DNA from: Agarophyton chilense
Lineage: Eukaryota; Rhodophyta; Florideophyceae; Gracilariales; Gracilariaceae
Direction: 5' to 3'
Length of the DNA stretch: 64,000 nt
NCBI GenBank assembly: GCA_030374765.1
Contig: JARGXX010000099.1
Coordinates: 1,426,001-1,490,000, forward strand
A program made the position numbers and the translations under genes. The notes below the pieces were generated by a model, which was given only the letters and a program-made list of their open reading frames with translations, was not told where the DNA came from and did not search any database. Shown here piece by piece: positions 1,514 through 19,613 of this stretch; within the stretch, counting starts at the first letter, position 1; every line of letters begins with the position of its first letter.

Positions 1514-1530
1514 TGTTCTCGGAATGCTAG
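1514..1530 (+). repeat. Left terminal inverted repeat of the 18.1-kb transposon
   Basis: This 17-bp sequence matches the reverse complement of 19594-19610 exactly. Weaker pairing continues for several bases inward (AGTG is shared at the same offset). The preceding CTG repeats just after the right end. Confidence 0.88.
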
Positions 1531-1604
1531 ATAAGTGTGCTAGATAGCTAGTTTTGTAAATAAAAAGCCAAAAAATCTAAGAATTTTGCAGATTGCGCTA
1601 GTTC
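1526..1604 (+). repeat. Left subterminal repeats (GCTAGAT / GCTAGTTT)
   Basis: GCTAGAT occurs at 1526-1532 and 1539-1545, GCTAGTTTT at 1547-1555 and GCTAGTTC at 1597-1604. Matching copies lie inside the right end. Clustered short subterminal motifs are the usual transposase-binding sites of CACTA-type elements; binding here is inferred. Confidence 0.65.
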
Positions 1605-1761
1605 GGCACCTGAGAAAGAAATATTTGGAAATAAGAACTCCATGCATCTTAGTGTTTTGACCACTTAATGCAGTTTAATCTGCATTTGCAGTTTACTGGT
1701 CACTTTTGACCGCTCTATGTGGAGATCCATACCAAGGCAGTCGTCAGTACCTTCTACCTCA

Positions 1762-2193
1762 TTACTGGCTTTTTTGCTTACTAGGCTCCAGCGTTCCACC
1801 GGGAGGATATTTGAGGTTGAAGAAGTCCACCACCGCATTCTCAACCTCGTCCACCTCCCCACTGCTCAAGTTCCTCACACCCGGCTGCCCCACCACACAC
1901 ACATTCCCACCCTTCTTCTCCACATCCCTACCAACCCTCCTCTTCTTCAGCCGACTCTCTCCAACTCCTCCCCCTTTCCATTCCTCTCTCCCCTTCTTCA
2001 TCCCAGCCGGCTCCCCGCGTCTCCCTGGCGTCACCGGCGACCCTTTCGCTCTCCCCCTCTCCTCTCCCACCTCCTTCAACACCTTCCGCGCACCCCAAAT
2101 CTCCCCCACCCCTTCCATGTGCACTTCCAACACTTTCACACGCCTCTTCAGTTCCTCATTCGCCCTCCACAGCTTCCTCATCTCCAGCCCCAT
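1762..2193 (-). CDS. Small coiled-coil basic protein, unknown
   Basis: The open frame runs from an ATG at 2193 and gives about 143 residues. It could extend upstream without a better start. The N-terminal 30 residues form a heptad-like coiled coil (MRKLWRANEELKRRVKVLEV), followed by a basic Gly/Arg/Lys-rich stretch. The pairing of a zipper with basic sequence recalls a DNA-binding or dimerisation protein, but no family is recognised. A GTGAGT donor-like site lies upstream on the same strand near 2265, so an additional 5' exon is possible, although simple splicing does not keep the frame. The opposite strand is open over the same region, but its product is Ser/Pro-rich and looks like an antisense shadow. 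Confidence 0.35.
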   Translation of the reverse strand: MGLEMRKLWRANEELKRRVKVLEVHMEGVGEIWGARKVLKEVGEERGRAKGSPVTPGRRGEPAGMKKGREEWKGGGVGESRLKKRRVGRDVEKKGGNVCVVGQPGVRNLSSGEVDEVENAVVDFFNLKYPPGGTLEPSKQKSQ

Positions 2194-2804
2194 GGGGATC
2201 CGCTCGACATCGCCAACGCCCGCGAAAGCTATCGACAAGAGCCATCGCAAGCGCAAGCGCACTCACCTTAGTGCGCCCAGTAGTACCCGCAGCCTCCCAC
2301 ACAGCACCCCCCCTCGAAAATCCTCTCGCCCACCTCCGGCCTTTTATCTCCTTTTTTTGACCCGCTTTTCGCGCGCGCTCGCCCAATTTCAGTACCCTCG
2401 TACACCCCTGCATCTACGCTCCGGATTCCCTTCACCCCACTCATTGCTCACTCACACACTCCCATCCATATTCCTACACCTTCTATCATGTTCAGCGCTC
2501 CCTCACTACTCCCAATTTCATAGCCTTCTCATTTATAATAAATCACACTCATTCGTAAAACAAACCGCCGATTACTCATAAGCCCTCTTTCCCGTTATGA
2601 CTTCCATAACAACACACACTCCTACACTTTTAACACGATAAACACCATTCAATATCATAAATCTAACCTCCTTCCCAAAAACCCCTAACACCCATTCCTC
2701 CACAACCATACTCCTTCTCTATTTAATCACATCTCCACACTCGCCACCCCCACCACTTCTTCAATTCCAAGCACACCGCACTCCAAACACCTTTCGCAAT
2801 CAAC

Positions 2805-3628
2805 ATGACCGACTCTCTCACTGCCATCCCTTGCACCTCCGACCCAGCCCCTATTGTCGGCAGAGGCCGAATCGGCACTTTGCTTCGCAACAACGGCACC
2901 CCACAAGATGCTTTTCTCTCAACTCAAGAATTCATCTCCGCGCAATACATCCCCGACGGCCCCATTTTCTTCTGCGGCAGAAATCATTCACTCGAAGACG
3001 TCATTCAATTCTGCTCTTCCTCCCGCAGAGAGGATCTGGTCTTCCTTCAGAACGGAAACATTCTCCCTCTTCTTTCAACCTATGGGCTCCAAAACTGCAC
3101 CAAACCGTTCTCTTCCTCGCCGTCCCCTCCCTTAACGCACCCCCCGAGGACGGTGTCACCCTCCTCAGTCCCCATGGTCTCACAACTGCCACCGGCAAAT
3201 GGGCTCCCGCACTCGCCAATCGCCTCAGTACCGCAGGCCTCACTTGTCATGTCGTCGACCAGCCCTCCTTCTCTAAAGCTTACTACGAAAAACTCGTATG
3301 GATATCAGCTTTTAATCTCGTCGGCTCCTCTTATGGCTTTATCACAATGCACGAAGTTGCAGTACAACACCGCACAGTCGTTTCAACCATAATGAAAGAG
3401 CTCCTCGCCATCGTCACATCCGAAACAGGAATCGCTTACAATACAACCGAAACACTCCAAAAACTTCTGGCCCACGGAAAAACACTTACACAGTTCCCCA
3501 CCTCGTTCTCAGACTTTGAGTTCCGGAACGTCTACTTCTACAACGTTTCTAACGCCCAAAAATCCATTGGAAACCGTGACCCCGCCCCTTTCCATACGAA
3601 CTTCTTGAACGTCCTCCTCAATGGGTAG
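2805..3628 (+). pseudogene. Ketopantoate reductase (PanE/ApbA)-like cargo gene, frameshifted
   Basis: The N-terminal part has a Rossmann NAD(P)-binding motif, VGRGRIG (about residues 18-24). A DGPIFFCGRN stretch and then DLVFLQNGN follow, typical of the ketopantoate reductase-like family. The C-terminal part continues in another frame with PPEDGVTLLSPHG and a helical KLVWISAFNLVG segment like the PanE substrate domain. A shift between the two frames lies near 3095-3108, without splice signals, so a single-base change is likely. The full product would be about 270 residues, close to PanE length. Family members reduce small 2-keto acids with NADPH; the real substrate is unknown. As transposon cargo it is unusual, and it may be a captured host or bacterial gene. 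Confidence 0.62.
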
Positions 3629-4043
3629 TACTTCATTCATACACCCCTTCCAATAAAAACAAGTCCTCCTTTCTAAAGCATATGTCCATCTCCTTCGCTG
3701 CCTCGATAAAGACTGCTATCCGCACGACACCACGTCAGAATATATGAAACGATATTAAGAATTGCTTCGTACATCACAAATCATCACTACAACCACTCTT
3801 CATAAATCTTCCAACTTTGCAATTAACTCTGTACCCAATAACCGCTCCTACAGCCTATCAAAGGTTTTCATTCATAACAATTATTCATACTCCGCAACAG
3901 AGATACGGCAACAACCTAACAACTACTTTGATCACTACATATATATATCCATCGATGACCACCCTACTTCATTGCGCTCAACATACTGTATCCGGTCCCT
4001 CACAAATACCTTTCTACACAACACTCTCCTCTCCTTCTCAAGC

Positions 4044-5229
4044 ATGCAGCGCTACGAAGCACGTCTTTTTCTACCCCCTGGTTCTTCTGTCCAATGCTCA
4101 GCAGCTGTGGATATTCTTCCACAACGAACGGTTATCACCATCGACGAAGTTCTTCAAATCAAACTTCCAACCACCCAGAATGTGGTCGAAGTCAGAGGGT
4201 TCCAGAATCATATCACCAACGAGCTCATGGACGAGATTCGTGACATTTGTACGACCACCAGGAGGCTCCCCACTCGCAACTCCCTACAGCAGCAAGATAC
4301 TCTGAAACAACTGTTCAAAGAGCGGTATCATATCGTTACCTATGTGCAGCGTACAAGGAAGACTAGCAAACAGGAACGCCTTTACTAAGATGTTCAGTTA
4401 GCAAACACTCTTCACATCGACCTTAACGTTCAAAATCACACTAACTACACTCTTCTGAGTTATAGACCCAGCTCTGCAATATACGCTTCCATTCAGATTC
4501 AACTCTCTCCTTCGGTTCATTCTCATAACGCTATTGAGATGTTCTATCCAAAGCCTGCTACACATTCTCATAATCGAAGGAGGCGTACAATGTATAAACG
4601 CGTTATACGGGTCTCTACAAACTACGCCGTTCAATCCAAACCAGCGATATACCTGGAAGAAACGAGCCTTTCTGGAATTCGGGGCTCTACTCCTTACTCT
4701 ACTCATCCCCCTCAACGCCATACTTTTCCTCGTTCACCGCTTCATTCCAGTCAGCGGTACCCTTTCATCAGACGTGAAGACAAATTGTATCGCCTTCTCC
4801 ACAGGAGGGGCCGCAGTTGGCGCTTTGGCATATCTTCTCCAGCTTGTTTCTATATCCTTCTTTCCAGAGTCCTATCTTAACACAAAGTTCACATTGACCC
4901 CGGAACCACGGAGAACCTCTTTTATGAACCTCGTGCTTGGCGCCCTCTCCCACTCTTTTCAACAGGCTTTATTCATATCCAGTCCGGATGTAACCTTCCG
5001 ACTACTCGGTATGAGGCTGTCGGCATGCACTTTCGCTGCTCTCTCTTCAACCGCCTTCTCCACCTCTCGCATTGAGGGACCTGGTGTTCCTATACTGCTT
5101 GGTAACACAGTGGATGTCGTAATCTTGATATCTTCGAAAGTTGTCATTCACTGTGAAAAAGTGAAAGCAAGTGCTACTCTCACGCGTTTCAATCCAGTTG
5201 TTCAGGAGTTTCTACTGAAAGACGACTGA
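4044..5229 (+). pseudogene. Membrane-protein gene of unknown function, interrupted
   Basis: The gene starts at ATG 4044 (an earlier in-frame ATG-less stretch extends to 3762). The first part is a soluble domain of about 110 residues. After an in-frame stop at 4386-4388 the same frame stays open, then the coding frame changes near 4535. The C-terminal 230 residues hold two strongly hydrophobic helices (FGALLLTLLIPLNAILFLV; GGAAVGALAYLLQLVSI) and weaker ones near the end. The family is not recognised. It ends 81 bp before the convergent ParB-dioxygenase gene. No good intron borders were found at the two breaks, so decay is the simplest reading; an unannotated intron cannot be excluded. Confidence 0.42.
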
Positions 5230-5310
5230 TCACTATTACAAGAAAAGGGGACTACTCCACATATTACCTCAAATTGTACTCTTTATTGTTCAATAGGTAA
5301 CAGATACTAT

Positions 5311-8300
5311 CTACTCGTCGTCGTCATCCATTATCATACCGCCGTCTTCATAGTCTCCATCTGTGTTAGCCGAGTTGAGACCCATCCCAGGTTCATCATC
5401 CTCTTCTTCATACTCCTCTTCCCCACTTTCAACAACTTCCATTTTATAATCTTCATCCAACTCCTCATCCTCATCTACATGGACGTCTTCATCATCACCC
5501 TTGTTGGAATCATCCTCTTCGAACTTAGGCCGAAATGCTGGTTGCCAATGCACTGCGTCCGGGAGCTTGTACCCATCCGGTACCAAGTACATGTGATACC
5601 TCATGCAAACTTCCTTAACCAATGCATCCTCGTATCCAGCTCCAGCATGAAACACATCTCCTCTTCCAATAAAAATGGAGTACGGCGGAATCCTGAACTT
5701 CCTCACTACCATCGTCCGAGACAGCCGCTTCAAGCTCCTGTCGTCGGGCACGTACATGTTATGTGACCTCTCACAAACCCAAAGCATAAACGAACTCGCT
5801 CCCGACGCCATCATGAAGAACCCTGGAACCTCTCCGACGTTCTTCTCGGCATCGGTCAGTCCTCGAAATTCCGTATGTAACACCTGCCTTGGACAGCCCT
5901 CCGCCGTACACAGCACTCGCCCCCCTGTTTCAGAGGCATACATCCTCTTCTTCCCCGACCTTTTGTTGCACAACCGAAGAGCGGCCGCAATCTGTCCAAA
6001 CCTCGCATCCAACAATAACCTTTTCCTCACCATTAAAACATTGTTCTCGTCCCCCTCCACAGAATACACAATCCCCACCTTCGTCGTAATGTACCGCCCA
6101 ACTCCCTTCATTCTATCTCCAGCGTCTCTCTCCTCACCAGCGTTGATTATGGGGTCCCATTTCTTTCTATTCCCTTCAATCGTCAAGTCCGGCTGGTTCA
6201 AGAAATCCGTCTGGAAGAACTCTAGCAAAGTCCCAGTCACATCTCCATCGAAGTTTACCTCCCTCTTCTTCGCCTCATCCGCCATCCCCTCGTCCGTGGC
6301 AAACTCTTCCAGCACAAAAAATCCTTTCTCCATCAGCTCACTTCTCTTAGTCGCGAAGTACTCGCGGGCCAAGTCATCCCTCTCCATTGCTGCCATCCAT
6401 ATCGCCTGCTCTTCATTCACAGGGTGGTCCTTCGTCGGTAGAATCACCCCAAGAACCGGTTCTTTCGTGGAACCCAGTTCCTTGTGCCTGTTATGAGCAG
6501 CACGCCAATAAACTGCATGGTGCACACTTTTCAAGTCTTCTACCCTCAAGCACTCTGCCCTATGCTTGTTCCGTAGGTAAATCATCTGCATCCAGAGGTG
6601 CTGATGCTTCACTCCATTTTCACCCGCCGGCCACTTGCTCGGAAGTGCATTCACCAAGTACACCCACGACATACCCGACCCCCCCGCATACGGTCCCGCC
6701 CTCTTCAGCCCCTTCGGAACACCCTCCGGATTATTGTCTTCGAAGCCACGCATTTGCACGCCTTCCTCCTCTTCGTCCCCTACAAATGCACCCTGCCCCC
6801 CATCATCATCCAGTTCATCCTCACTCGATGAGAAAACATTGAGTACATGTTCCTTCAAGAAGCGCTTCAGCTCTTTCCTGCTCATCTTCTTGAACACATC
6901 CACCACGTCAGCCGGTATTTGAGCCGCAGATGTGCCCACCGTCTTTCTCCTCTTCCTCTTCCGCTTTAAAGGCTGATCATACTCGCGTTCATCATCACTA
7001 ATGACCACAGCCTTTCCCTTCCCCTTTCTCTGTCTAGGTTCCATCACCCTCTCACCCGCAGCATCCAGCCCGCGCTCAGTACCTTTTCTAGTTCGTGTGA
7101 TGCGTCTGGGAACCACGGTTTCCTGGTGGGGTACAGACTCCCCAGCACTAGACGAAGGAACATTCACAGAAGGTGGCATCTCCACCACATCCTTCTCCGC
7201 ACTTGGGGACGCCAGACTCACTTTCAGACCGCCTTCAATCCGCCTTTGTGCGATTTTCATCCTCTTCGATACCAACGCCGGCCACAACCGCTTCGGACCA
7301 CTGAGCTCCATCTTCGCCGTTGGCATGCAAAGGTACTCCCTTAAAGACACCTCGTTCTTTCCCATCACAATTGTGCTGTCTAGAACCTTCCCCGCCGTCA
7401 GACCCTTCTCCTTTCCCGCCCTTTCGCATAGTTGGAACATTCCTATGGCGCATTGGAAGAACTGCTTTCGCGTCTCCTGGAAACGTCCCATATTCCCCGT
7501 AGAACCCATCCTCACCCTCACATGTAGCTGCAAACAACGGATTTCGAAACGGAATATTTCGTCTTCGAGTCCTAACAACAAGTCACTCGACACATGCGCA
7601 AGCGTTAGCACTGGACCCTCCTTGCATATGTTCTCAAAGAACTCCAGGAGACCTTCGCTCCTGACGAATTTCAACCCAAGAGTCGCATAGCGATTCAAGT
7701 GGCGCAAGCTGTAGATTCCTATAGTTTCGCTCGTCTTCAGCGCCCTAGCTATCCGTGTCGGAGTAAGGTCAGCCAACTTGGTTCTCTTATCGTCAATCAA
7801 GTTGCAAATGAAGGACACTGTCGAATGAACCTTGTCGGCGAAACTCATCTTCAACACATTTGAACTCATTTCATTGAGTACATTACCAAGACCGAGCACT
7901 TCGTTCAGCGATAAAGGCTTCCGGTCCTTGCGTCTCCAAAGAACGACATCAAGAGACCGCACAATTTCCAACCACTTTCTCTCTTCAGAGGGATCATTCT
8001 TCAGATCTCGCAGAACCAAGACGCGGTGATGACCGTCAATGAGTATGACAGGCACCACTACCCTCCCATTGTGAACAATTTCACTGAAATCTAATTCTAT
8101 TCCCCCGACGATGGCAACAGCAATCAACCCTGCCGACGCAAGCCAGCCAAACGTTTTGCACTTTGCCATCGTCACCGCCTTGTGTTCCGCATTCACACTT
8201 CTGACAGTCTTCTCGGGGATTTGTATGTCATCTATGTCCACAATCAAGCGGCACTGGTCATAGTCTGAAGCAGAGATCTTCTTTTCCACGAGAGTCCTAT

Positions 8301-8997
8301 CCACTTCCTGCGAAGGAACGGCTTCGCCGTCATCGAACAACTCCAACTCGGGACCGGTGTGCGAATCCCCGCGTACATTCACCGCTGACCCTACCTCCAG
8401 AACATCCTCATCAGAATCATCCACTATCGTCACCCTCTTTTTCGGCTTCACGGGTTGCTTCATGGCCGGCGGCACTGTTGTTGGCTGTGCCCTCTTCCCC
8501 CTCAAAGGCGTAGCAGACTCCTTCGAGGGGGTCGCGCTTTTTGGAGTCTCCGGCCGAGGAGGCCCTGGAGTCAGCACAGAGGAGACGCGTGTCATCATCG
8601 AGGTATCCCATGCGTATATACCTGCCGACACCATATACTTCAGCAACTCCGGCGGCTCCTCTGCTCCCTTGAAGGAGTACGGATACTTGGAGTTGATCCC
8701 CTCCTTAATTTCAGTCCTCCAGATGGCCACCAAGTCCTCTCCCGGCTTCGCAGACTCGCGCATCGAATGGCCATGCATCGCTCTGCAAAGCGCCTTCCCG
8801 GCCGCTCCACTGCCCCCAACACCTCTCAACTCCGCAGTGCCAACCATAGTACCCTTCTTCTTCCCTGTCCCATCCGCCAGGAACAACGCCACCCTATCCC
8901 CACCAGCCAGATTGTTTCCCGATGTAGCTTTTCGCGGAGTGGCGCGTGGAGTACCCCGCGGATTACCCCTCGCTTTCGCTTTGCCTCTAGTCATCAT
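5311..8997 (-). CDS. ParB-like domain fused to a 2OG-Fe(II) dioxygenase-like (DSBH) domain, 1228 aa
   Basis: Intact single-exon ORF starting at ATG 8997. Residues 1-30 are basic with RGTPRATPRK-type AT-hook-like sequence. Residues 225-420 resemble a ParB/sulfiredoxin-fold domain: a GLIAVAIVGG strand-helix, VILIDGHHR (D321-R325), then VVLWRRKDRKPLSLNE. The middle is charged, with KRKRKRRK nuclear-localisation-like sequence. The C-terminal domain looks like a double-stranded beta-helix oxygenase: H1041-x-E1043 (HTEF), IGRGDVFHAGAGY with H1117, and R1133 (CMRYHMYLVPD). These are the iron- and 2-oxoglutarate-binding positions. The last 65 residues are very acidic. By family, ParB-like folds bind DNA or nucleotide, and DSBH dioxygenases oxidise bases, proteins or small molecules. 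A role as DNA or histone demethylase is inferred from the methyltransferase-SET gene across the divergent promoter. The acidic ligand is Glu rather than the usual Asp. Confidence 0.72.
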   Translation of the reverse strand: MMTRGKAKARGNPRGTPRATPRKATSGNNLAGGDRVALFLADGTGKKKGTMVGTAELRGVGGSGAAGKALCRAMHGHSMRESAKPGEDLVAIWRTEIKEGINSKYPYSFKGAEEPPELLKYMVSAGIYAWDTSMMTRVSSVLTPGPPRPETPKSATPSKESATPLRGKRAQPTTVPPAMKQPVKPKKRVTIVDDSDEDVLEVGSAVNVRGDSHTGPELELFDDGEAVPSQEVDRTLVEKKISASDYDQCRLIVDIDDIQIPEKTVRSVNAEHKAVTMAKCKTFGWLASAGLIAVAIVGGIELDFSEIVHNGRVVVPVILIDGHHRVLVLRDLKNDPSEERKWLEIVRSLDVVLWRRKDRKPLSLNEVLGLGNVLNEMSSNVLKMSFADKVHSTVSFICNLIDDKRTKLADLTPTRIARALKTSETIGIYSLRHLNRYATLGLKFVRSEGLLEFFENICKEGPVLTLAHVSSDLLLGLEDEIFRFEIRCLQLHVRVRMGSTGNMGRFQETRKQFFQCAIGMFQLCERAGKEKGLTAGKVLDSTIVMGKNEVSLREYLCMPTAKMELSGPKRLWPALVSKRMKIAQRRIEGGLKVSLASPSAEKDVVEMPPSVNVPSSSAGESVPHQETVVPRRITRTRKGTERGLDAAGERVMEPRQRKGKGKAVVISDDEREYDQPLKRKRKRRKTVGTSAAQIPADVVDVFKKMSRKELKRFLKEHVLNVFSSSEDELDDDGGQGAFVGDEEEEGVQMRGFEDNNPEGVPKGLKRAGPYAGGSGMSWVYLVNALPSKWPAGENGVKHQHLWMQMIYLRNKHRAECLRVEDLKSVHHAVYWRAAHNRHKELGSTKEPVLGVILPTKDHPVNEEQAIWMAAMERDDLAREYFATKRSELMEKGFFVLEEFATDEGMADEAKKREVNFDGDVTGTLLEFFQTDFLNQPDLTIEGNRKKWDPIINAGEERDAGDRMKGVGRYITTKVGIVYSVEGDENNVLMVRKRLLLDARFGQIAAALRLCNKRSGKKRMYASETGGRVLCTAEGCPRQVLHTEFRGLTDAEKNVGEVPGFFMMASGASSFMLWVCERSHNMYVPDDRSLKRLSRTMVVRKFRIPPYSIFIGRGDVFHAGAGYEDALVKEVCMRYHMYLVPDGYKLPDAVHWQPAFRPKFEEDDSNKGDDEDVHVDEDEELDEDYKMEVVESGEEEYEEEDDEPGMGLNSANTDGDYEDGGMIMDDDDE

Positions 8998-9142
8998 TTG
9001 AATCGGATCGTAGTCGGTCGAGGTTGCAAATGGTCGCAGAGCGCTTTGAGCATTTTATGGTATACAGACTAAGACGTATTAGATCGAGCTCCTTTGGTGG
9101 CGACTATCCAAAACACTCCCGAGAGCAGTTCGTTGCAATCAG

Positions 9143-9194
9143 CCTGAACTACGTCCGCTTAGTTTCAACCTGAGCTACGTCCGCTTAGTTTCAA
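9143..9194 (+). repeat. 26-bp tandem repeat, two copies
   Basis: CCTGAACTACGTCCGCTTAG continuing to TTTCAA is repeated at once with a single A/G change (9143-9168, 9169-9194). It lies in the promoter side of the ParB-dioxygenase gene. Confidence 0.85.
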
Positions 9195-9287
9195 ACTCAA
9201 GAAACTCCTTGTCTCTTTCCATCACAAACACGCCTATTGGCTTGGTAGGCGATACAAGAAAATAAAATTAAAAAATTAAAAACATCC

Positions 9288-9362
9288 TGACGGCCGACAG
9301 AGGTGCGCTCCGACTTCATCGGGGGTCCCGATGAAGTCCCCGCGCACCTCTGTCGGCCGACA
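9288..9362. repeat. 75-bp palindrome, copy 1
   Basis: The arms begin TGACGGCCGACAGAGGTGCGC and pair with the far end with one mismatch in the first 21 bases. Pairing continues through a CGACTTCATCGGG inner arm to a loop of about 3 bases. The sequence could extrude as a cruciform or be bound by a dimer. Confidence 0.85.
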
Positions 9363-9415
9363 TAATACATATAATTTTGTAATTTTTGGAACGCTCAGGT
9401 GTACACGGTGCACTC

Positions 9416-9490
9416 TGACGGCCGACAGAGGTGCGCGGGGACTTCATCGGGACCCCCGATGAAGTCGGAGCGCGCCTCTGACGGCCGACA
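9416..9490. repeat. 75-bp palindrome, copy 2 (inverted copy of copy 1)
   Basis: This is nearly the reverse complement of 9288-9362, so the two palindromes form a larger inverted pair around a 53-bp A/T-rich spacer. Arm ends differ at about three of the first 21 bases. The core GACGGCCGACAG recurs at each arm end. Confidence 0.85.
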
Positions 9491-9663
9491 GAATGCAACC
9501 AGGATAGCTGCGAAGTCGTTCCGCAACAACCGTTCTTCCGTGCGCGCTCCTCAACCGTACTCACAATCTTTCCGTACCCACCCGCACCCACCCGCACCCG
9601 CTGCTCTCTTTCACTCAGGCTCTCGTGACGACCGCCCGTGAGGTTGTTTGAACATGTACATAA

Positions 9664-12600
9664 ATGGCTCCAGAACCCACGAGAACTTCTTCATCGCCTG
9701 CGGCAGACACCTTCGAAATGGGTAAACTGTTTGGTACGGGGGATGAAGTTATCAGGGCGTGTCTGGATTTGCGTGATCGTTACGCATTAACGAGGCGGGA
9801 GGAAGATGAGCCGCGAAAAGTGGAACACACTGCATTCATCGATTTCACAATTGCCCATTGCCACATCCTACCGGAGACCGCGAAGTTTTTTTATACTCTC
9901 CTAGGTCCCGACCACACCAATTACACAGAAGATGAGCTCCGAGTTGTAGGAATGAGGGGCTCGAACTGTCAGAATTATTTCTCGGCGAGGTTGCTGGATA
10001 TAAGGGATGGGGACCCAGATAGGCGCGTGAGGGACTTTTAGAACGCGTACGAGGCGGTGGAGTTCAAGGGCATCCCGAAGAACGTCACTTTGACAGAGTT
10101 TCAAAGGTCTGGATACAACCCGAAAGAAGGCGAGCAAAAGCCGGGCTCCATTCGCGACCGACTTCCCGACAATGTTCCAGAGGCTGCTGTTCCTCATTTG
10201 TATTCAGTCGGTCTCTATGGAGAAGAGAAGAGTCTCCCGTAAGCGAAGAAAGCGGGACAGAACCTACGATACGCCATTTTCGAAGGTGGCGATTTATGAC
10301 AAACCAGTAGCTCAGCGTGTGGGCTTTGGTGTGCAGCTCGTCAATAACGCGTGGGACAGCTTCGCCCAGTATTTGGGATTCTCTGGCGTGGAATTCATGG
10401 TTTTGACCTTTATCCATCTACGATATTCTGATATGCAGTTCCAGGCAATCGGAAACAGAAGGGATGGGTTCTCTCACAAGGACATGGCCCAACGACTCCT
10501 TCCTGGTAGAAACTGTACTTTATTGGAGGAGGATGTCGTCCCATGGGCGTGGAACCTGCCGGAGTACGTTGACACTCCACTTCGTATGTTGGCCAAAGAG
10601 TTTCTCGCTGACCTGCACAAAGTGGTGGTGAATGAGCAGCTTTACTCTATATCAGCTCCGGAAAGATGGGACGTTCTAAAACCGTTTACATACACTTTGC
10701 CTAGAGTGTTTGCGGAGAGATTCGACTGCTTCTCGAACTCTCTTATCTCTACCATCTCGGAATACATATCGCCACTAAAGCTGCGAGGGAGTGTGGAGGT
10801 GGAAGTGGTGGCTGCGACAAAGGCGGAACCTACTATGGTTATGGAAGAAGACGAGATAGAAGTTGTACCCCCTGAGAAAGATTCGGAGGCTCCGGCGGTG
10901 GAGGGTGGAGAGGGAGTGGAGGGTGGGACCGGGAATGAGGAAGAGAACATGGGTGTTGGTCAGCATTCTTCCACAGCTGGACCAAGGTCGGTCGAATCTG
11001 AGTCGGTGGATATTCTGCCGCCTCACGACCTTACCTCTCTGGATGATATAATGTCTCTCCAAAAGTGCGAGTCGGAGATGGATAAGCACTGTCGAATGTA
11101 CAATTGTACTTTCGAGAACCTGGTGGAGATTAACTAGACATTGCGCAGCAATGGGGTCTCTCCGATAGGGAAAGTGCAGTTGGTTCTCACGGACCCGCCG
11201 TGTAATATACGTACGAAGAAGAACAGGAAAAACAGCTGGTACGACGTTCTTAACCGGCAAGACATGGTGAAGACGGCGAAGCTCATCTCTAAACTTCTGC
11301 GTCCGGGAGGGCATTTCGTTATATTCTGCGCGATTGAGCAGGTGAACGAATGGAAAGAAGTGTTGGGTCGAATTGGTGCAAAGGATGAGAATGGACAGAA
11401 GAGCAGGTCGTTTGTCGTGGACAAGGTCCAGCTGCACTTCATTCGCTCTCAAGGCAATCCGATGCGTAATCCCGGACGTAGTTCGTGCTCCCTGTTTCCC
11501 GGAACAGAGCACGCCATTCATGGAGTTCGCAGCGGGTTGTCCTACGCCGAACAACATGGCATGGTGATCTATGAGAACTTCAGCTATGTACCATCGCGAT
11601 ATCCGGGTTACCATAGCGTGATTGACCAAGTGCCTCCCATTTCGAATGGTGAAACACTTCTATGGAGAAGGAAGAATGCCAAAGGAGCAGTTACGTATCA
11701 GAAAGTGCGGGCGGAACAGAAGTCACGCGCTTTGCTGAAGGAGCTCATCAGCAGGTTTTCTCAGCCGGGAGACATAGTGGTGGACCTCTTCGCCGGAGCA
11801 TTTTCAACGGCCATGGCATGCATGGAACTGGAAAATCACCGTCAGTTTCTAGGGTGTGAGCCAGATCCGCAGTGCTTTGCTCATGCGAAGCACGCCGCTA
11901 CAGTGAAATTTGCGTCATGCATGCGGAACAACGAGACGGACATTCATATAACGCAAGATGTTCGGAACGCTGTGACTCGAGTGACATGCTTGTTTCCGGA
12001 CGTCGTCATAAAGCGTTCGAAGTCCTGGAAAACACCTACCGGACTTCCCGAGCATCAGATGTTTCCACCCCATATCGTGGATTTTCTCTCCTCCATGTGG
12101 CAGGATAAGAATATACCGGAGATTGGGCGACGGCAGGCGCTGTATGAGTGGCCAAGAAGTTTTCAAGGAAAGATGTCACTGTTGGATTGGAATGCTATTC
12201 TGGCAGTGGAGGCGACAGTATGTGGTTGTCCGATTGCAAATGCTGGAGTTGGTGTGTACACAACACGCCGGGTGATACAAGGTGAGACTGTTTGTTACTT
12301 TTACGGGACTTTGGTGTACCATAATCTTTCAAAGCGGAAGGAAGTTCATAAGGCATACGGAGGGGGGCTATTGAAAGCGACTGCTGATCGTTTTCGGCAG
12401 TACGCGATGGAGATAAGCGTCCGAGGGGAAGTGTTTCACAAGCTACCAGGAAGAATTAGTGGGATGTCTCTTATTCCGATGTGGATTTTCCCTGCTCCAT
12501 TTTGCTTGGGGGGAACAATTAACGACCCCAAGTATGTGGAAGGGGATAGGGACAGTGATGCGGTTGAAGACGGGTTAATGAGACGCCGAACTGCAAATGT

Positions 12601-12772
12601 TCGGGTCATCAGAACTCCGGGGACGGGGCGGACTCCATTTCAGTTGAGAGACTATAGATTGATTTCTGTGCAAGCAATTCGAGATATAGAAATAGGAGAG
12701 GAGCTGTTCGCGGATTATGGAACAGAGTATATCTCGAGTATGAATAACACGCCAGTCATAGTACTCGATTAA
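9664..12772 (+). pseudogene. DNA amino-methyltransferase (beta-class order) fused to SET domain, with breaks
   Basis: One gene in three frame segments. 9664-10242 (unrecognised N-terminal domain) has a TAG at 10039-10041. The frame then changes near 10239-10260, where a GTAAGC...ACAG string of 22 nt would restore the frame if removed. 10172-12772 is one frame with a TAG at 11135-11137. After an acidic linker comes the methyltransferase: TDPPCN at 11189-11206 (motif IV), LLRPGGHFVIFCA, a target-recognition-like region, then VVDLFAGAF (motif I) near 11779-11805. Motif IV before motif I is the order of beta-class N6-adenine/N4-cytosine enzymes. DPPC replaces the usual DPPY. The C-terminal part is a SET-like domain: GVGVYTTR near 12246, then GEELFADYG near 12700. 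SET domains methylate lysines. The joint product would mark both DNA and histone; that is an inference. Both TAGs could be single CAG-to-TAG changes. Confidence 0.7.
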
Positions 12773-13096
12773 AAGTGCATCGCTTTTGTTACTTTACTTC
12801 ATTGTAGTGTATCAGATATTGTGGGCTTTTACTATGTTTGTCGCTACATATAACGTCAAAGCGTGACGTAGTACATATGCTAAAGGAAATTCATGTACAC
12901 CGAAGGAGAATACTTTCCCAATATCTGGTGCGTTCGAGCGCATATTTAAAATATCTGAAAAGTTTGGGGGTTTTCTGGGAACACGAAAAGGGTGGAGGTA
13001 TAATTTTGGAAGCAGAATGTTTCGAAGCTTCTCTCCCATCCATGGCATTGCAACGCGTGGAAGACCATACCACGATCGCTCTCTCTCTCTTCAACC
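12773..13096 (+). other. Intergenic leader before the 884-aa gene
   Basis: This 324-bp spacer shows no coding signal. Just before the next ATG it has a CTCTCTCTCTCTTC pyrimidine tract (13079-13092), probably a promoter or initiator element of the downstream gene. Confidence 0.4.
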
Positions 13097-15751
13097 ATGG
13101 CTCCGAAGCGCAAATCGAGAAGCGAGAACACTAGCGGGCGTGGTACAAAATCTCGGCGGCATGGAGGGGATGCGGAGGGCGGAAGGGACAAGGGGCGTAG
13201 GCTCCAGGGCGCGAGTGGAGAGAAGGGAGGCGTGCGCCTGAGAGGTAGATCAAGGCAAGATGGTGGGGAAGGAGAGGCGAGTGGGGGCAAAGGAAAGGCT
13301 GTTCGCGCAAAGGAGACGGTGACGGAGGAGAGTGCGGAGCAAATCACGTCGCTTACGGAGCAAATCACGTCGCCTATGGGAGAGATGGTGCGGAGCGGCG
13401 ATGGAAAACGGGATGGCGTGCGAAGCAACCGCACGCGTGTACCTAGAAGTGGATTGCGGGGGAGGGCGAGCAGAGCTCCATGGAGGACAAGGAGAGGGGA
13501 TGCATCCGAGCGGACTCTAAGTGCTGTACTCACGTCTTCAGCTGATGTGGAGCCGGTAAATCCATGCTCTGCACCTGAAGGAGGTGAAGAGATTCCGAAT
13601 GAGAGGACGAAGGGGCGTAAGGAGGGAGAGAGAATGATCGGAGAACGTGGATCCCGCCTCAGAGGCGTTGAAGAAGCAGGGGCATCGTTTACGGGTATGA
13701 GGGAAGAGGACGGTGATGATGAGATGCAGAAAGGGAGAATAGAGAGTAGCCGTGGTGGGGAGGGTAGAATAGGTGGACCCAGTAGTGGTCTAATCGCGGG
13801 CGCAAGAGTCGTTCGAGAGAGAACAGAAGGAGAGAGTGTTGGAGTTACCGCGGGGGAACAGGCGGAAAGATGGGAGGGGGCAAACTTGGATTACGTGGAA
13901 GAAAGGAGAGAGCGTGCAAGGGAAAGAATGGGGAGTGTTCGAGTTACAGGAATAAGAGCGATAGACGAAAGGGAAAGCAGAGAAGTGCATGTGAGTGAGG
14001 GGGGGAGAAGGGGGTTTGCTGGAGGGAGAACACGTGTTTCAGGGGAGGAAGGCGATGGAAGAGCAGCAGTTCTTTCTCATCAGGGAGAAGATGTCGAGCG
14101 TTTGCCACCGAGGAGAGGGGTGGGTTTGGGAGTTGAAGGGTTTGAGGTGAACGCAAGGCGAAGGACGCCGGAAGGTATGCGAATAAGGAGAAACATTGTA
14201 TTCACAAGGAATAATGATAACGGGGAGAATGCGAATTTGAATGTCGTGGAGAACGCCGTCCGTATACTGGAAGATGAAGCAAATGATGATGACATGGGTT
14301 TGTTGCCGCAGTCGATGCTAATTGAGAAGATGAATGTGTTGAAGGGACAAATGGGACGTATGAAGGAAGACAGCTACAGTGTGATGGTGAGTTTGAAAAT
14401 GACCCAAACGGAGCTGGATCGGGCGAGGGAGGAAATGAAGCAGCAGAATGTGCTGCTTGAGAGTTTTAGGGAGGCGTTGAAAAGTAGAATCGCTGGGGAA
14501 GGGAGGGGGGAGGGAGGCGTGACGCAGCGACGAAAGTATTACATTGGAGTGCAGGAATGCTTTTATGGATTTGCACGTCGTGTGTATGATAGGATTCTTC
14601 ATTGTGCAAAACTGGAGGCATCGGAACTTTGCTTCAACACCGAGAATGTTGGTCGAAGCTGGAAGAATAGAAGTGAGGCGGTTGGGGAGAGTAGGGAGGA
14701 AAGTATGTTTGTGGTGGGAGAGAAGGAAATGGTTGCGGGATGTCCAATTGAGGTTGCATATGAGATGAGACCGTATACGCCGTCGACAGAGGGCGGGAGC
14801 CATTTGTTGTTGAAGCACGTGGTAGAGACTGAGTTAATGGGAGAGAAATGGGAGTCGATAAGGGAAGCGGGGAGGAGAGAGGAGTGCGTGGAAAATTTAA
14901 GTACGAATCAGTGCTTGAGACAGAGAATGAAGCAAGCATTGAGCGATGTGGTTGGGGTGCGGAAGCGATCAGCGCGTGATAAGCTGTTTTCCATGCTTGG
15001 ATATGATTTGATCGCGAAACGAGCTAAGGTGACTGAAGAGACGGAGCTTTGGGCGGAGTTGAAGAAGCAGATTGAGGAGGCGCAGGAGAAGTTGATGGGG
15101 TTGGGGGAGGATGGGAGAGGTAAGCTGTGTGCGTGGAGAACGAGTGCGATTGAAGATATTACTTATTCCGGATCGAAGGTGTCTGAGAACTTGGAGGACT
15201 TTGGTGAGGCAGATATGTATTTTCGAAATCAGGTGTCGTTGAAAGTGTTGGAGGAGTTTATGGGCTACGCGGTAGAGAGTCACAGAAATGGAGAAAGGCA
15301 GTATGTGGATGGGACGGTGATGCATCTTGCGCGACTTGATGCATGGATTGGATGTGTGGTGACCACGATGGATAGAGACCTTGGGCGGGGAGGCCAAAGG
15401 CAACTTTTGTTCTCGACGCTGTTTGGGAGGTTTCTGCCACTGGCTGTTGAAGACATATTGAGGGTTGCCTGGAACATGGTGAAGGATGAGTATGCTGAGG
15501 AGTTTGAGAATGATGGATTCTGTGGAGGGAATCGTAGAGATGTGAGTGGGAATAAGGAGAGAATCGCGACGGTTGGGGTATGGATACCGTCGAGAGAGAA
15601 AATCTATCTGGCGATAAGGGAGGAGTTTTTCATGGAGAATCTCACGAGAAGACTTGGAGCGGTGTTAGATTGCTATATAGCGTCATGTGGACCAGAAGAA
15701 CCACGGTTCAAGCGCTTAGCGTTGGGGAGTAGGCAAGGAGTGGGAGAGTGA
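13097..15751 (+). CDS. 884-aa basic coiled-coil protein, unknown, intact
   Basis: Single uninterrupted ORF from ATG 13097, preceded by a CT-rich tract. Residues 1-400 are highly charged and rich in Arg, Gly and Glu, so probably disordered, with basic nuclear-localisation-like runs at the start (APKRKSRSE). Residues 405-465 form a coiled coil (MLIEKMNVLKGQMGRMKEDS; TELDRAREEMKQQNVLLES). The C-terminal 370 residues look globular, with a GVQECFYGFARRVYDRIL helix and a second short coiled coil near 640-665. No enzyme motif is recognised. It is convergent with the transposase, with 87 bp between stop codons. Its survival alongside decayed neighbours suggests either recent activity or selection within the element family. 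It could be a DNA-binding accessory protein of transposition. Confidence 0.65.
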   Translation: MAPKRKSRSENTSGRGTKSRRHGGDAEGGRDKGRRLQGASGEKGGVRLRGRSRQDGGEGEASGGKGKAVRAKETVTEESAEQITSLTEQITSPMGEMVRSGDGKRDGVRSNRTRVPRSGLRGRASRAPWRTRRGDASERTLSAVLTSSADVEPVNPCSAPEGGEEIPNERTKGRKEGERMIGERGSRLRGVEEAGASFTGMREEDGDDEMQKGRIESSRGGEGRIGGPSSGLIAGARVVRERTEGESVGVTAGEQAERWEGANLDYVEERRERARERMGSVRVTGIRAIDERESREVHVSEGGRRGFAGGRTRVSGEEGDGRAAVLSHQGEDVERLPPRRGVGLGVEGFEVNARRRTPEGMRIRRNIVFTRNNDNGENANLNVVENAVRILEDEANDDDMGLLPQSMLIEKMNVLKGQMGRMKEDSYSVMVSLKMTQTELDRAREEMKQQNVLLESFREALKSRIAGEGRGEGGVTQRRKYYIGVQECFYGFARRVYDRILHCAKLEASELCFNTENVGRSWKNRSEAVGESREESMFVVGEKEMVAGCPIEVAYEMRPYTPSTEGGSHLLLKHVVETELMGEKWESIREAGRREECVENLSTNQCLRQRMKQALSDVVGVRKRSARDKLFSMLGYDLIAKRAKVTEETELWAELKKQIEEAQEKLMGLGEDGRGKLCAWRTSAIEDITYSGSKVSENLEDFGEADMYFRNQVSLKVLEEFMGYAVESHRNGERQYVDGTVMHLARLDAWIGCVVTTMDRDLGRGGQRQLLFSTLFGRFLPLAVEDILRVAWNMVKDEYAEEFENDGFCGGNRRDVSGNKERIATVGVWIPSREKIYLAIREEFFMENLTRRLGAVLDCYIASCGPEEPRFKRLALGSRQGVGE

Positions 15752-15838
15752 TAAGGTACGGGGGGATAAGGGGGTAAGGAGGTGGAGCAAGATGGGAGTC
15801 GGCTATGGAAGAAAAGCAGCGGTGACTATTTTATTGGA

Positions 15839-18800
15839 TCATGTGCCTTGGGAGGTATTATTATGGGTGCCACCCAGTGGTGGTGTTGTGCCACCAGTGG
15901 TGGTGTTGGAGAAGTAGGGCGTGGCAGTTGGGTCTCGGTAGAATCTGTTGAGGTAAAATCGATGGAAGCGCCAGTGCAATCGAGGGGTGCAAGGGGGTGC
16001 GGGGTAGTTTTGGCGAAGTACATGAACGGGGCCGAGAATGGAAGAGGATGGTACGAGGCCGAACCAGGGGGAGACGTTGTCGGAGTTGGAAGTGTTTGAG
16101 ATAGGAAGGGGGTGGGCGGTGTGGTTTTGTTCGTCGTATGTTGCCCATCGGAGGCAGATGCAATTGAGAAAGACATCGACTTGATCCTGGGGTGGAACGA
16201 GTTCGAGGAACTGAACGAAGGCGAACTCGTTATGAGTGGAAGGGGAAGAAGGGGTGGTGAAGCGAAGAAGAGAGTTGAGCTTGCAGACCCAGGCGGTGGG
16301 AGTGGGGTTGGAGAAGCTGGAACCGGCAACGTGGATGTGGGAGAACTTTGGGGTTTTAGAGGGATCGAAGAAGGGAGCAGCGAAGATACGTTGAATGAGT
16401 GGGAGAGGGGGATCTTTGACGGCGAGCTCGTTTCGATCGGCGATGTAGTCGTCTAGGGTTGGGGTGAAGCCGCCGACGACGTATGCGGAATTCACGAATG
16501 TGAGACGGGTTTGGCGGAGAGTGGGGGAGTCCTGGTTGAGAGCTAGTGTTTCGAGTGTGAGTGTGACGAAGGAGGGGAGTGCGAGGGTTCCAATCTGTGA
16601 GATGATGGCGATAGAGTCTGGGGAGAAGAGGTCCTGAAGGGAAGAGATTGTTGAGTGGGGGTTTGCTCGAAGGAATTTGTGAGCGGTGATGAGATCGGAA
16701 AAGGAGGTGTGCTTGCCATCACGGACAAAACCTGTTTTGCGGGCTTGGAAGGGAGGAGGAGGGGCATGGGAGGATGAGGTGACGGAAGGATCAGCGGAGA
16801 GAGAAATCCAATTGTTGACGGCATCGGAGCGTTCGATGGCACGGATGGTTTCGTTGTGCGCGGTGGGTCTGCGCTTGGAAATTCGGGAGTAATGTGCTTT
16901 GAAGAGGGCATGGGCTTGTTCGAAGATGCCTGCATCGTTGAAGTGGAGACCCCCAAAGCGTCGAATGTCGTCTACGCTGTGATCGAGGAGGTGGAATTGG
17001 AGGGTGCCAAGGTTGGAGGTATGGTATGGACCGAGAACATCGACAGCTCTGTGCTTGAAGGAATGGATTTGGGAGGCGAGTTTGGCAAGAAGAGAAGTGG
17101 TCCATTCGGGGACGGAGTTGTAGCACATGGAGGTGAGGAGGAGGTCTGTGTACTTGGAGAAGACAGTTGTGATGGGAGCGGAATTGGCTTCGTCACAGCA
17201 GCGGTCGAAGAAGGCGCCGATGAAGGGGAAGACCATGTCGAGGGCGCGGTAGTCTTTTGCTTCTAGCATGCCGCGGACGCCGTCAGTTGTGAAGAAGCCG
17301 TTGAGGGACTGCCCGCTTTCGGAAGTAGAGAAGTCGATGTGGAGGCCGGTAGCTGGGGAATGATTTTCGATGGCGGTGAGGATGAAGTTGGAGTGCTTGA
17401 GAATGGAGGTGCGGACGGAGTGGAAGGAACGGCGAGAGTTTGTGGAGCTGATGGTGGTGAGGAGGTGTTCTGATCTGAGACGTTCGATGGCGGCGAGCTT
17501 GATGAGTTTGGAAACGCCGAGGTGGAAGTTGTGGAGGGGTTCGAAAGGGAAGATGTTGTATGGGGTGAGGAGGGGGGTGATGTTGAAAAGCGGGTAAGAC
17601 TCAAAGAGGGAGGTGTATTTTGCGAGGGAGAGGGAGTGGAGTGCTTGGAGCGCTTGTTCCTTGAAGTTGCGCGAGACTCTTGGCTTGCGGGCGAGGAGAG
17701 CTGCTTCAGAGTCCTTGAGGAGGGAGAAGTGTTTGTTGCGGGCTGCAAGGGTGAGGGGAAGAGATCGAGGGGGATGGGCGTGAGAGTGTTGGTGGAGTTG
17801 TGAGCGAGGGACAGAGCATCTGTGGCAGGGGTGCTGGGGGCGGGTGCCGTGGGAGATGGCGAGAATATCCTTTGCCTCGGGAATGTCTGCGCAGTAGTTG
17901 GCGATGATGGGGTGGCATTGACGAAGAACGCCGTCTGCGTCGCGGAAGGGGAAAGTGGGGAGGGCGGAAGAGAAGAGAGGTTGAAGGAGGGAGGAGATGG
18001 TCTGCTGTATGAGTTCCATTTTTGTTTGGCGGGGGATGGAGGAGGAATGAGTGATGATATCTGCATCTGGAGAAGGAGTGATTGGGGTGAAGGAGGTGGG
18101 AAGATAGCCGAGGAGTGTGAGATTGTCGGAGATGCATTTGCGCCGAAAGGAGTCGGAGAAGTTGAGAAGGGTGATGTGGAGGGGGTACGAGGTGATGGAA
18201 GAAGATTTGAGAGAGGGAGAGGACTTGTCGGAGTAGATTTGAACGAGGCCGATGAAGGAGTCGATACCGGTGGAGTGAGGAAGATGCCAGACGATGTAAT
18301 CTTTTTTGGACTGCATGATGGCGGTCTTGAGTGCGGGGACGACCTTTGAGCCGAGGGTGGCTGCCATGGGGTGTGCAAAGGCGGGGGAGCCGGAGGCGGA
18401 TGTTTCGGAGATGGGGTGGAAAAAGGTGTTCTTGAAGTGTGCGAGGGCGAGCTGTTGTTTGAGGACATGGATTGCGTCTTTCTGGAAGAGGGTTGCGGGG
18501 AAGCGTTTGTGGGGATCGAAGATGGTAAAGGGGGCGAAACCAATGGACCTGATTCTCTGGTGGAAGAGGTCTGCCTGGAGCTCGAGCTATTGCTTTGCGG
18601 AGGAGACTGAGTTCTGGAATGTTGATTCGGAGAAGTGGGGATCATTAAGGAGAGTGATGAGTTCGTCAGACTTTCGTTGTCCTAGCTTGGAGGCGATGGA
18701 GGAGATGTAGAGGACCATTTTCTCCAGGTGGGGGTTGTCGAGGGGGGAGTGGAAGGAGGGAGGGGGGAGAGAGCGAGAGAGGAGGGGGAACCGAGAGGGG

Positions 18801-19101
18801 CAGTGGCGACGTGGATGGCGTCCTGGGTGTGGAGGGAGAGAGAGAGCTGGTCTTGGAGATAGGAGTCATGGTGTGCGAGAGGGACATTGTCGGAAGGGCG
18901 ATGTGAGGGAGGAGGATGAGGGGGGAGTTGTGAGGTGGACTTGTGGCGTTTTGTGCGTGGGGGGAAGTTGGGTTCATTTCCGCCAGGGGAGAGGAAGCGC
19001 TTGTTGGCGGAGAGGCGATGAGGGCACCTTCTCTGGTGCCGCTGGAGGGCGGGGATTTCTCGGGCGAAGAAGGAGCAACCGTTGAAGCAGCAGAAAGGCA
19101 T
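15839..19101 (-). pseudogene. Plavaka/KDZ-like (CACTA-related) transposase with N-terminal zinc finger, interrupted
   Basis: ATG at 19101 opens a frame starting MPFCCFNGCSFF and carrying a C2H2 finger (C..C...13 residues...H....C/H; QRHQRRCPH). The main transposase frame runs to 15839, open for over 840 residues from 18367. It can be read further upstream (AIHVLKQQLALAHFKNTFF) to a TAG at 18587-18589 and beyond to about 18740, where the frame must change to join the finger. Diagnostic stretches are a zinc-knuckle-like HPCHRCSVPRSQL, FEPLHNFHLGVSK (an E/D-x-L-H box) and HLLDHSVDDIRRFGG followed by FEQAHALFKAHYSRISKRR. These resemble Plavaka and related KDZ transposases that contain a DDE nuclease. 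One frameshift and one stop are apparent; an intron is possible but no clean borders were seen. Confidence 0.7.
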
Positions 19102-19419
19102 GGTGGGTGGAGGAGAGGTGGTGGGAAAGAAGTTGGTAGGGGGCGTAGACGGAGAGAGAGTATGGCGCACACAGGGCACGTGACAGGGGAGGGCGGTGGA
19201 GAATAATATAGAATGCAAGGCACGTGAGGTCTGCCAGGTCGGGCTGCGATTCTATTGCGATTGATATGGATGGTACTAAATGTTCAATTTCTATTTTGAG
19301 GTCCATTTTGGGACCGGTTGTTTGTACTAATCTGTCAATCTAGAGCGCACAAAGATTGAATCTGCTCCTGCACCACTTCTCTACTTTTACCTTTAAACTA
19401 CGGCGACAGAAAGATTAAC

Positions 19420-19598
19420 GCTAGTTTTACCTCCATCAAAACTAGAAAAACTGCAGATATGTGCTAGTTTTCCTTCCCATACAAACTAGCACTAATGAAC
19501 GAATGAAAATATTTTCGGAAATTAACACCTCCAAATTTGGATAAATTTACGGGGTTTTTGGTCATTTCAATTCGTCCTTTTTTGACCACTGAACTAGC
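19420..19598 (-). repeat. Right subterminal repeats (GCTAGTTT family)
   Basis: GCTAGTTTT lies at 19420-19428, GTGCTAGTTT at 19461-19470, AAACTAGC at 19483-19490 and GAACTAGC at 19591-19598, in mixed orientation. They mirror the left-end motif cluster. Confidence 0.65.
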
Positions 19599-19610
19599 AT
19601 TCCGAGAACA
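19594..19610 (-). repeat. Right terminal inverted repeat of the 18.1-kb transposon
   Basis: Exact reverse complement of 1514-1530. CTG follows at 19611-19613, matching the CTG before the left end. Confidence 0.88.
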
Positions 19611-19613
19611 CTG

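Follow-up and report, generated by a model that had tools for sequence, protein, structure and literature searches.

Can a single DNA transposon carry, besides its own transposase, an enzyme that would write marks on both DNA and chromatin? The question is raised by a 64,000-nucleotide stretch of the red alga Agarophyton chilense (contig JARGXX010000099.1, positions 1,426,001 to 1,490,000 of the forward strand; hereafter the window), in which positions 1514 to 19610 were described in an initial annotation as one mobile unit. Judged from its sequence, this segment is probably an 18.1-kb Plavaka-family DNA transposon of the CACTA/EnSpm-related clade, with long-standing cargo and a fused chromatin writer. 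The segment has matching ends, a target duplication, homology to Plavaka transposases, a DNA-methylase and a SET domain in one frame, and a composition shared by transposase and cargo. Three lines of evidence, namely the ends, the transposase, and the skew common to the interior, support the proposal of one DNA transposon enclosing a DNA-methylase-SET gene. Other parts of the initial annotation fare less well: its observation is partly confirmed and its interpretation partly supported.

The borders of the element comprise the following features, in which TIR stands for terminal inverted repeat.
1514..1530, forward strand: left TIR, TGTTCTCGGAATGCTAG, an exact match to the right end
19594..19610, reverse strand: right TIR, pairing with TGTTCTCGGAATGCTAG, 17 of 17 positions identical
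1511..1513, unstranded: left copy of the CTG target-site duplication, inside a gypsy RNase H frame
19611..19613, unstranded: right copy of the CTG target-site duplication, beyond which lies an unrelated reverse-strand frame
1531..1602, unstranded: left subterminal CTAG repeats (GCTAGTTTT and variants)
19420..19593, unstranded: right subterminal CTAG repeats

The perfect 17-bp TIRs of the initial annotation hold. A search of the 64-kb window that allows up to three mismatches returns only these two matches, both perfect and in opposite orientation, against 0.13 expected, and none of 100 shuffles contains two matches. Within positions 1-22000 the TIR is the sole exact inverted 17-mer with copies more than 500 bp apart. 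It appears there as a single match of 18 bp, since the duplication contributes one further pairing base. The CTG duplication likewise stands, as CTG is present outside both ends, and the element termini TGTTCTCGG..CCGAGAACA are of the TGT..ACA type. The predicted empty site, CGT-CTG-ACG, is a near-palindrome, and for this reason the inverted repeat seemingly extends outward (30 nt at 90%). An empty allele with both present flanks would read CGTCTGACG. Matching subterminal motifs are also present, as CTAG clusters at both ends: the tetranucleotide occurs 9 times in the outer 300 bp (the first 100 and the last 200) and 20 times in the 17,797-bp interior. At least 9 occurrences in the terminal stretch were seen in none of 1000 shuffles, both motif and stretch having been picked post hoc.

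The transposase gene is located toward the right end.
15839..19101, reverse strand: Plavaka transposase (PF18759)

The match to the Plavaka family PF18759 has an E-value of 2.1e-21 and 77 bits (cut-off 26.3), and covers model positions 113-318 of 325. An N-terminal C2H2-like finger is visible by eye. Catalytic-type motifs lie between 17522 and 18238, including CHRC (17816-17827) and FEPLHNFH (17522-17545); the two H residues stand 2 apart, and the choice of the acidic residues was made by eye. In the sections of PMC12730594 that were covered, Plavaka is grouped with CACTA/EnSpm and apart from KDZ. PlavakaA elements have TGT..ACA ends and 2-bp duplications, PlavakaB elements have CATCA..TGATG ends and 2-3-bp duplications, and duplications across the clade are 2-5 bp long (PMC12730594). 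The earlier description of the transposase as Plavaka/KDZ-like is thus kept for Plavaka and dropped for KDZ. Membership in KDZ was rejected since Plavaka alone matched and the duplication is 3 bp, not the 7 bp (Kyakuja) or 8 bp (Zisupton) given for KDZ elements in the literature covered.

The second gene that defines the element lies near its center.
9664..12772, forward strand: DNA-methylase-SET fusion gene, both domains in the uninterrupted 11138-12772 frame

The 544 codons of 11138-12772 contain no stop and hold an N6/N4 methylase and a SET domain in one frame, and the DNA methyltransferase-SET fusion is accordingly borne out. N6_N4_Mtase (PF01555) matches at E 8.1e-16 with 59.1 bits (cut-off 26.7), and SET (PF00856) at E 1.6e-5 with 25.7 bits (cut-off 22.4). 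In a further Pfam profile scan the SET model was covered from 1 to 105 of 105 with 28.2 bits, against the cut-off of 22.4. The SET motifs are at 12245-12265, 12515-12535, and 12704-12730; by eye, GVGVY and FADYG are present, with INDP in place of NHS. The methylase matches phrog_67 in PHROGs (E 5.7e-23) and DpnA-type solved enzymes in PDB (E 1.8e-9). Phage records give 67 matches at E 1e-3 for the whole frame and 204 at E 1e-2 for the methyltransferase part, all below 60% identity. Plasmid records give 104 matches at E 1e-3 for the methyltransferase part, of which 98 are from Burkholderia, again all below 60% identity. Alignment with three phage enzymes gives the beta-type motif order (IV before I), with motif IV at 11180-11203 and the motif I-like DLFAGAFST at 11777-11809. 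The upstream part (9664-11137) has a codon-position composition like that of the remainder of the gene. It contains no known Pfam domain, and reading through the TAG yields no upstream extension of the methyltransferase homology. We infer that 9664-11137 and 11138-12772 form one gene.

Beyond the ends, the best evidence for one unit is the GC skew, which spans transposase and cargo and so points to one shared compositional history. On the plus strand, 17 of 17 windows of 500 bp are C-rich from 1514 to 10,013, and 19 of 19 are G-rich from 10,014 to 19,513, with a slightly C-rich last partial window. The strong skew spans 1715-19210, its sign flips at 9.3-9.7 kb, and it is lost in roughly the outermost 200 bp of the left end and the outermost 400 bp of the right end. 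The cumulative skew turns at 9714 and ranges over 1965, whereas none of the other, overlapping 18.1-kb stretches of the window exceeds 517. The two-part skew contrast is 0.70, against -0.14 to 0.14 in nine other overlapping 18-kb stretches. AT skew departs from zero by no more than 0.16 apart from 13.0-14.5 kb, where it reaches +0.18 to +0.32. The plus-strand skew at third codon positions tracks position and not gene strand in all six frames or frame parts: in the left arm, two forward frames have -0.45 and -0.33 and the reverse frame has -0.41, and in the right arm, two forward frames have +0.28 and +0.60 and the reverse frame has +0.80. The transposase and cargo look like one old unit. For comparison within the window, a copia stretch at 60-63 kb has a GC skew of -0.29 to -0.40 and an AT skew of +0.24 to +0.33, with no sign switch. 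A copia-type integrase frame (61669-62721, forward strand) was recognised by eye inside this skewed stretch. The skew switch is absent from the initial annotation, as are the TAGs and frame changes and the mismatched flanks described below.

At the switch lies a further feature.
9264..9510, unstranded: two near-palindromes of about 85 bp, mutually inverted copies, between divergent genes and beside AT-rich stretches

These have 87-nt arms that are 91% complementary, and the DNA fold has a z-score of -22.8. We infer from this structure a candidate origin or binding site. Either a central origin or a central two-way promoter would predict the combination of skew and palindromes.

The remaining cargo consists of four stretches.
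5311..8997, reverse strand: uninterrupted 1228-aa frame with a DGHHR motif, a basic/acidic linker, and a C-terminal oxygenase-like motif
13097..15751, forward strand: E/R/G-rich 884-codon open frame with no assigned function
2805..3628, forward strand: ketopantoate-reductase (ApbA/PanE)-like stretch with weak profile matches
4459..5229, forward strand: 256-codon open frame, perhaps a membrane protein

The 1228-aa frame had been read as a ParB-dioxygenase fusion, and this part of the initial annotation is not confirmed. The DGHHR motif (ParB/sulfiredoxin-like) lies at 8023-8037 and is the only feature by which a ParB domain is suggested. Searches with the frame gave nothing in NCBIfam or PADLOC, matches no better than chance in Pfam, PHROGs, and PDB, and none to the ParB families of Pfam. 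A home-made hidden Markov model (HMM) of six phage ParB-like proteins gave 10.4 bits (E 0.03) and ranked the protein above all 5000 of its shuffles, but an unrelated antisense Rpt1 frame equals it (E 0.032, 897 frames); the model was built around the very motif that prompted the test, which leans the test in favour. DGHHRVLVLRDL of the frame is similar to DGHHRVLVARDL, which comes from a Gordonia phage protein annotated as a ParB-like nuclease (tblastn E 1). This phage protein has no ParB domain in Pfam, so its name rests on annotators. Searched whole against phages, the frame has no match up to E 1. With the limit raised to E 10, its putative 130-aa ParB part matches one plasmid protein (E 2, hypothetical) and two phage proteins, one of them hypothetical (E 9) and the other ParB-like (E 1). 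The C-terminus carries HTE...FHAG...RYHMYL (5584-5877), which by eye resembles the HxD/E..H..R pattern of a 2-oxoglutarate-Fe(II) (TET-JBP-type) oxygenase. This oxygenase-like part has nothing above chance in Pfam, PDB, or phages, the one phage match being hypothetical (E 1). Two AlphaFold models made without relatives, including that of the oxygenase-like part, have a mean pLDDT (predicted local distance difference test) of 35.

The long coiled-coil protein of the initial annotation corresponds to the 884-codon frame, which is mostly not coiled coil and contains one short heptad-like stretch by a crude score. Its metabolic-type cargo comes down to the ApbA/PanE-like stretch, whose matches to Pfam ApbA_C (E 0.055) and NCBIfam PRK06249 (E 0.0013) lie below all cut-offs; a frame change at about 3.1 kb was placed by eye only. 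The 256-codon frame has no Pfam family and a weak NCBIfam match to a major facilitator superfamily transporter (E 0.0024, below cut-off).

The element would have moved by cut and paste. Its transposase would bind the 17-bp ends together with the CTAG repeats, and insertion at CWG-type sites would leave the 3-bp duplication. The foremost cargo gene fuses a phage/bacterial-type amino-methyltransferase to SET, and its large divergent neighbour may hold ParB-like and oxygenase-like domains. The fused protein was probably a chromatin writer that once set methyl marks on DNA and on a protein (histone) at one site, and such paired marks would steer host silencing of the element or of its competitors.

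Transposons with mark erasers (TET/JBP) or SET genes are already known (PMC12730594), and in one group of animals a methylase captured from bacteria works against transposons (PMC8885841). Plavaka elements, including those with TET/JBP genes in Agaricomycetes, share with the present element the Plavaka transposase, TGT..ACA ends in the case of PlavakaA, and chromatin-modifying cargo (PMC12730594). In contrast, the cargo there is a 5-methylcytosine dioxygenase, the TET-positive families are PlavakaB with CATCA ends (PMC12730594), and the host here does not look fungal. ParB is not named in the main text of that paper, and a methylase-SET fusion is absent from the parts of it covered (PMC12730594). 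HarbingerS and MuDR elements of Phytophthora, cited in the same paper, likewise combine a DNA transposon with a SET gene; however, they belong to other superfamilies, and no DNA-methylase fusion is mentioned for them in those parts (PMC12730594). In N4CMT of bdelloid rotifers, too, a eukaryote has an amino-methylase of phage/bacterial type coupled to a chromatin module (PMC8885841). According to the sections covered, N4CMT is a host gene that helps silence transposons, with a chromodomain reader and SPPY, while the gene here is transposon cargo with a SET writer and DPPC (PMC8885841). Plavaka giant repeats of Amoebidium have recombinase genes whose database matches fall in far lineages, e.g., dinoflagellates or red algae (PMC11244446). 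Many of the genes in these repeats are tyrosine recombinases, and no methylase-SET gene is mentioned in the parts of the source covered (PMC11244446). Among the matches listed in open-access literature, judged by titles, abstract openings, and counts, there was no transposon with a methylase-SET gene.

Viral contigs contained no relative of the ParB-oxygenase frame, the methyltransferase-SET frame, the transposase, its core, or the 51-aa oxygenase motif, and prokaryote genome contigs contained none of the ParB-oxygenase frame or the transposase core; these scans need exact 8-residue words and find only close relatives. The end pattern of the element had no match in viral contigs. The palindrome pattern had one match there, which had no palindrome beside it and was taken as chance.

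If the favoured reading is true, a DNA methylase and a SET domain in one transposon polypeptide would couple two silencing layers on the transposon's side. Intact relatives would make the idea of a writer directly testable. Moreover, if the skew switch is general for the family, it would be a sign that a cut-and-paste element replicates or is transcribed in an unsuspected way.

Several observations weigh against this reading. The window contains one copy of the element only. The 3-bp duplication is within the clade's 2-5 bp and differs from the 2 bp of PlavakaA. Some related transposons prefer CWG as their target, and the matching CTG on the two sides counts for little if insertion always follows that rule. 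The flanks do not agree with each other. The left flank is gypsy pol by Pfam (RVT_1, E 1.5e-32; RT_RNaseH_2, E 7.5e-25), and its match to gypsy RNase H breaks off at residue 429, some two codons short of the left border. On the right, a different frame abuts the end.
19612-20781, reverse strand: right-flank frame in two 197-codon parts with one stop between them

This frame has no Pfam family at E 0.1, and the gypsy frame is not visibly resumed, the other frames on that side having been inspected by eye only. Joining the flanks with one CTG produces a stop in the pol frame. An alternative 2-bp reading (TG; element 1508-19616) gives an open join that lacks the residues expected of RNase H. Rebuilding the target as a single gypsy gene was therefore rejected, neither the CTG nor the TG join being convincing. 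As joining the flanks yields no single gene, one clean insertion is not demonstrated.

The genes are interrupted as well. The transposase is interrupted by an in-frame TAG (18587-18589), and its frame must shift somewhere from 18682 to 18865, a stretch with C6 runs. The methylase-SET gene has TAGs at 10039-10041 and 11135-11137 and a frame change by 10240. Furthermore, its motif IV reads DPPC, where the three aligned phage enzymes have DPPY, and departs from the catalytic rule (D/S/N)PP(Y/F/W). In the rotifer N4CMT, replacement of S and Y of SPPY abolished activity (PMC8885841, in the part covered), and by this analogy the methylase of the present copy may be inactive. Five host-like frames (685, 631, 856, 448, and 723 codons) are uninterrupted, so poor assembly is no obvious cause. 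A reassigned code was rejected, because Rpt1 ends in ..YLVYN-TAG and TAG is thus a stop in the host; this TAG directly follows what we take to be the last conserved Rpt1 residues. Among solved structures, Rpt1 of the window matches 8amz (spinach) best with 796.6 bits, followed by 12bm and its 118 fellow entries (human) with 755.3 and by homologs of 467 residues (yeast) with 693.4. Together with the paucity of introns, this ranking weakly suggests an alga of the plant line, perhaps a red one, and differs from what a fungus would be expected to give. Because of the in-frame stops in both transposase and writer gene, the present copy has probably lost its autonomy, and the idea in the initial annotation that the element controls marks on its own DNA is not borne out for the present.

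The mismatched flanks may stem from a recombination of two copies or from a chimeric assembly. It is possible, if not the probable case, that the element family is real but that the left and right parts of this record come from different copies, brought together either through ectopic recombination or in the assembly of an 18-kb repeat, so that the gene content may mix two copies. The end of the gypsy RNase H match about two codons before the border, and an unrelated right flank on the opposite strand, fit such a junction. However, the interior skew changes gradually with a single switch, and the two CTG copies agree.

Passive capture, in which the cargo has no role in the life of the transposon and the methylase-SET gene is a dying passenger, appears rather doubtful. 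The two TAGs, the frame change, and DPPC in this gene favour this view, as does the broken transposase. On the other hand, the cargo has the strong skew of the element and has probably been long aboard, and its largest frame (1228 aa) is uninterrupted.

An improbable extension of the favoured reading is that the element once replicated freely from a central origin at the 9.3-kb palindromes, with a ParB-like protein binding the palindromes to keep the copies in order and the fused enzyme setting paired DNA and histone marks on them. Such replication would account for the G-richness of the outward strand in each arm. The element would then be a plasmid-transposon hybrid of algae with an epigenetic kit of its own.

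It is very unlikely that the interruptions are introns of 15, 22, and 15 nt (10027-10041, 10239-10260, and 11123-11137) and that the writer gene is intact. By inspection, all three are GT..AG and together restore a single frame. This fit is not telling, however, because 32 of 73 simulated CAG-to-TAG changes in five intact frames could likewise be "spliced" out with 12-25 nt, and the absence of interruptions in the five host-like frames also speaks against tiny introns. To our knowledge, such tiny introns occur only in a few protists, which counts further against them.

An endogenous virus or virophage remnant is scarcely credible: its size, its skew, and the palindromes at its centre are reminiscent of a genome that replicates, but the larger frames, those scanned with Pfam, have no capsid, packaging, or polymerase family above chance, the sole virus- or primase-type names have E-values of 0.14 (influenza C matrix) and 0.22 (TOTE primase), and the Plavaka transposase and TIRs account for the borders.

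The window as a whole has no Rfam match at gathering scores and no ARAGORN match. Outside the element, at 36288-39165 (reverse strand), three frames, one with a SWIM-like CSCRKN..C recognised by eye, are perhaps a remnant of a Mutator-like transposase; they have no Pfam match at E 0.1. At 45451-47346 (reverse strand), one frame combines a Ham1-like region (E 0.002, below cut-off) with a phosphoribosyltransferase domain, and its N-terminus resembles a transit peptide by eye.

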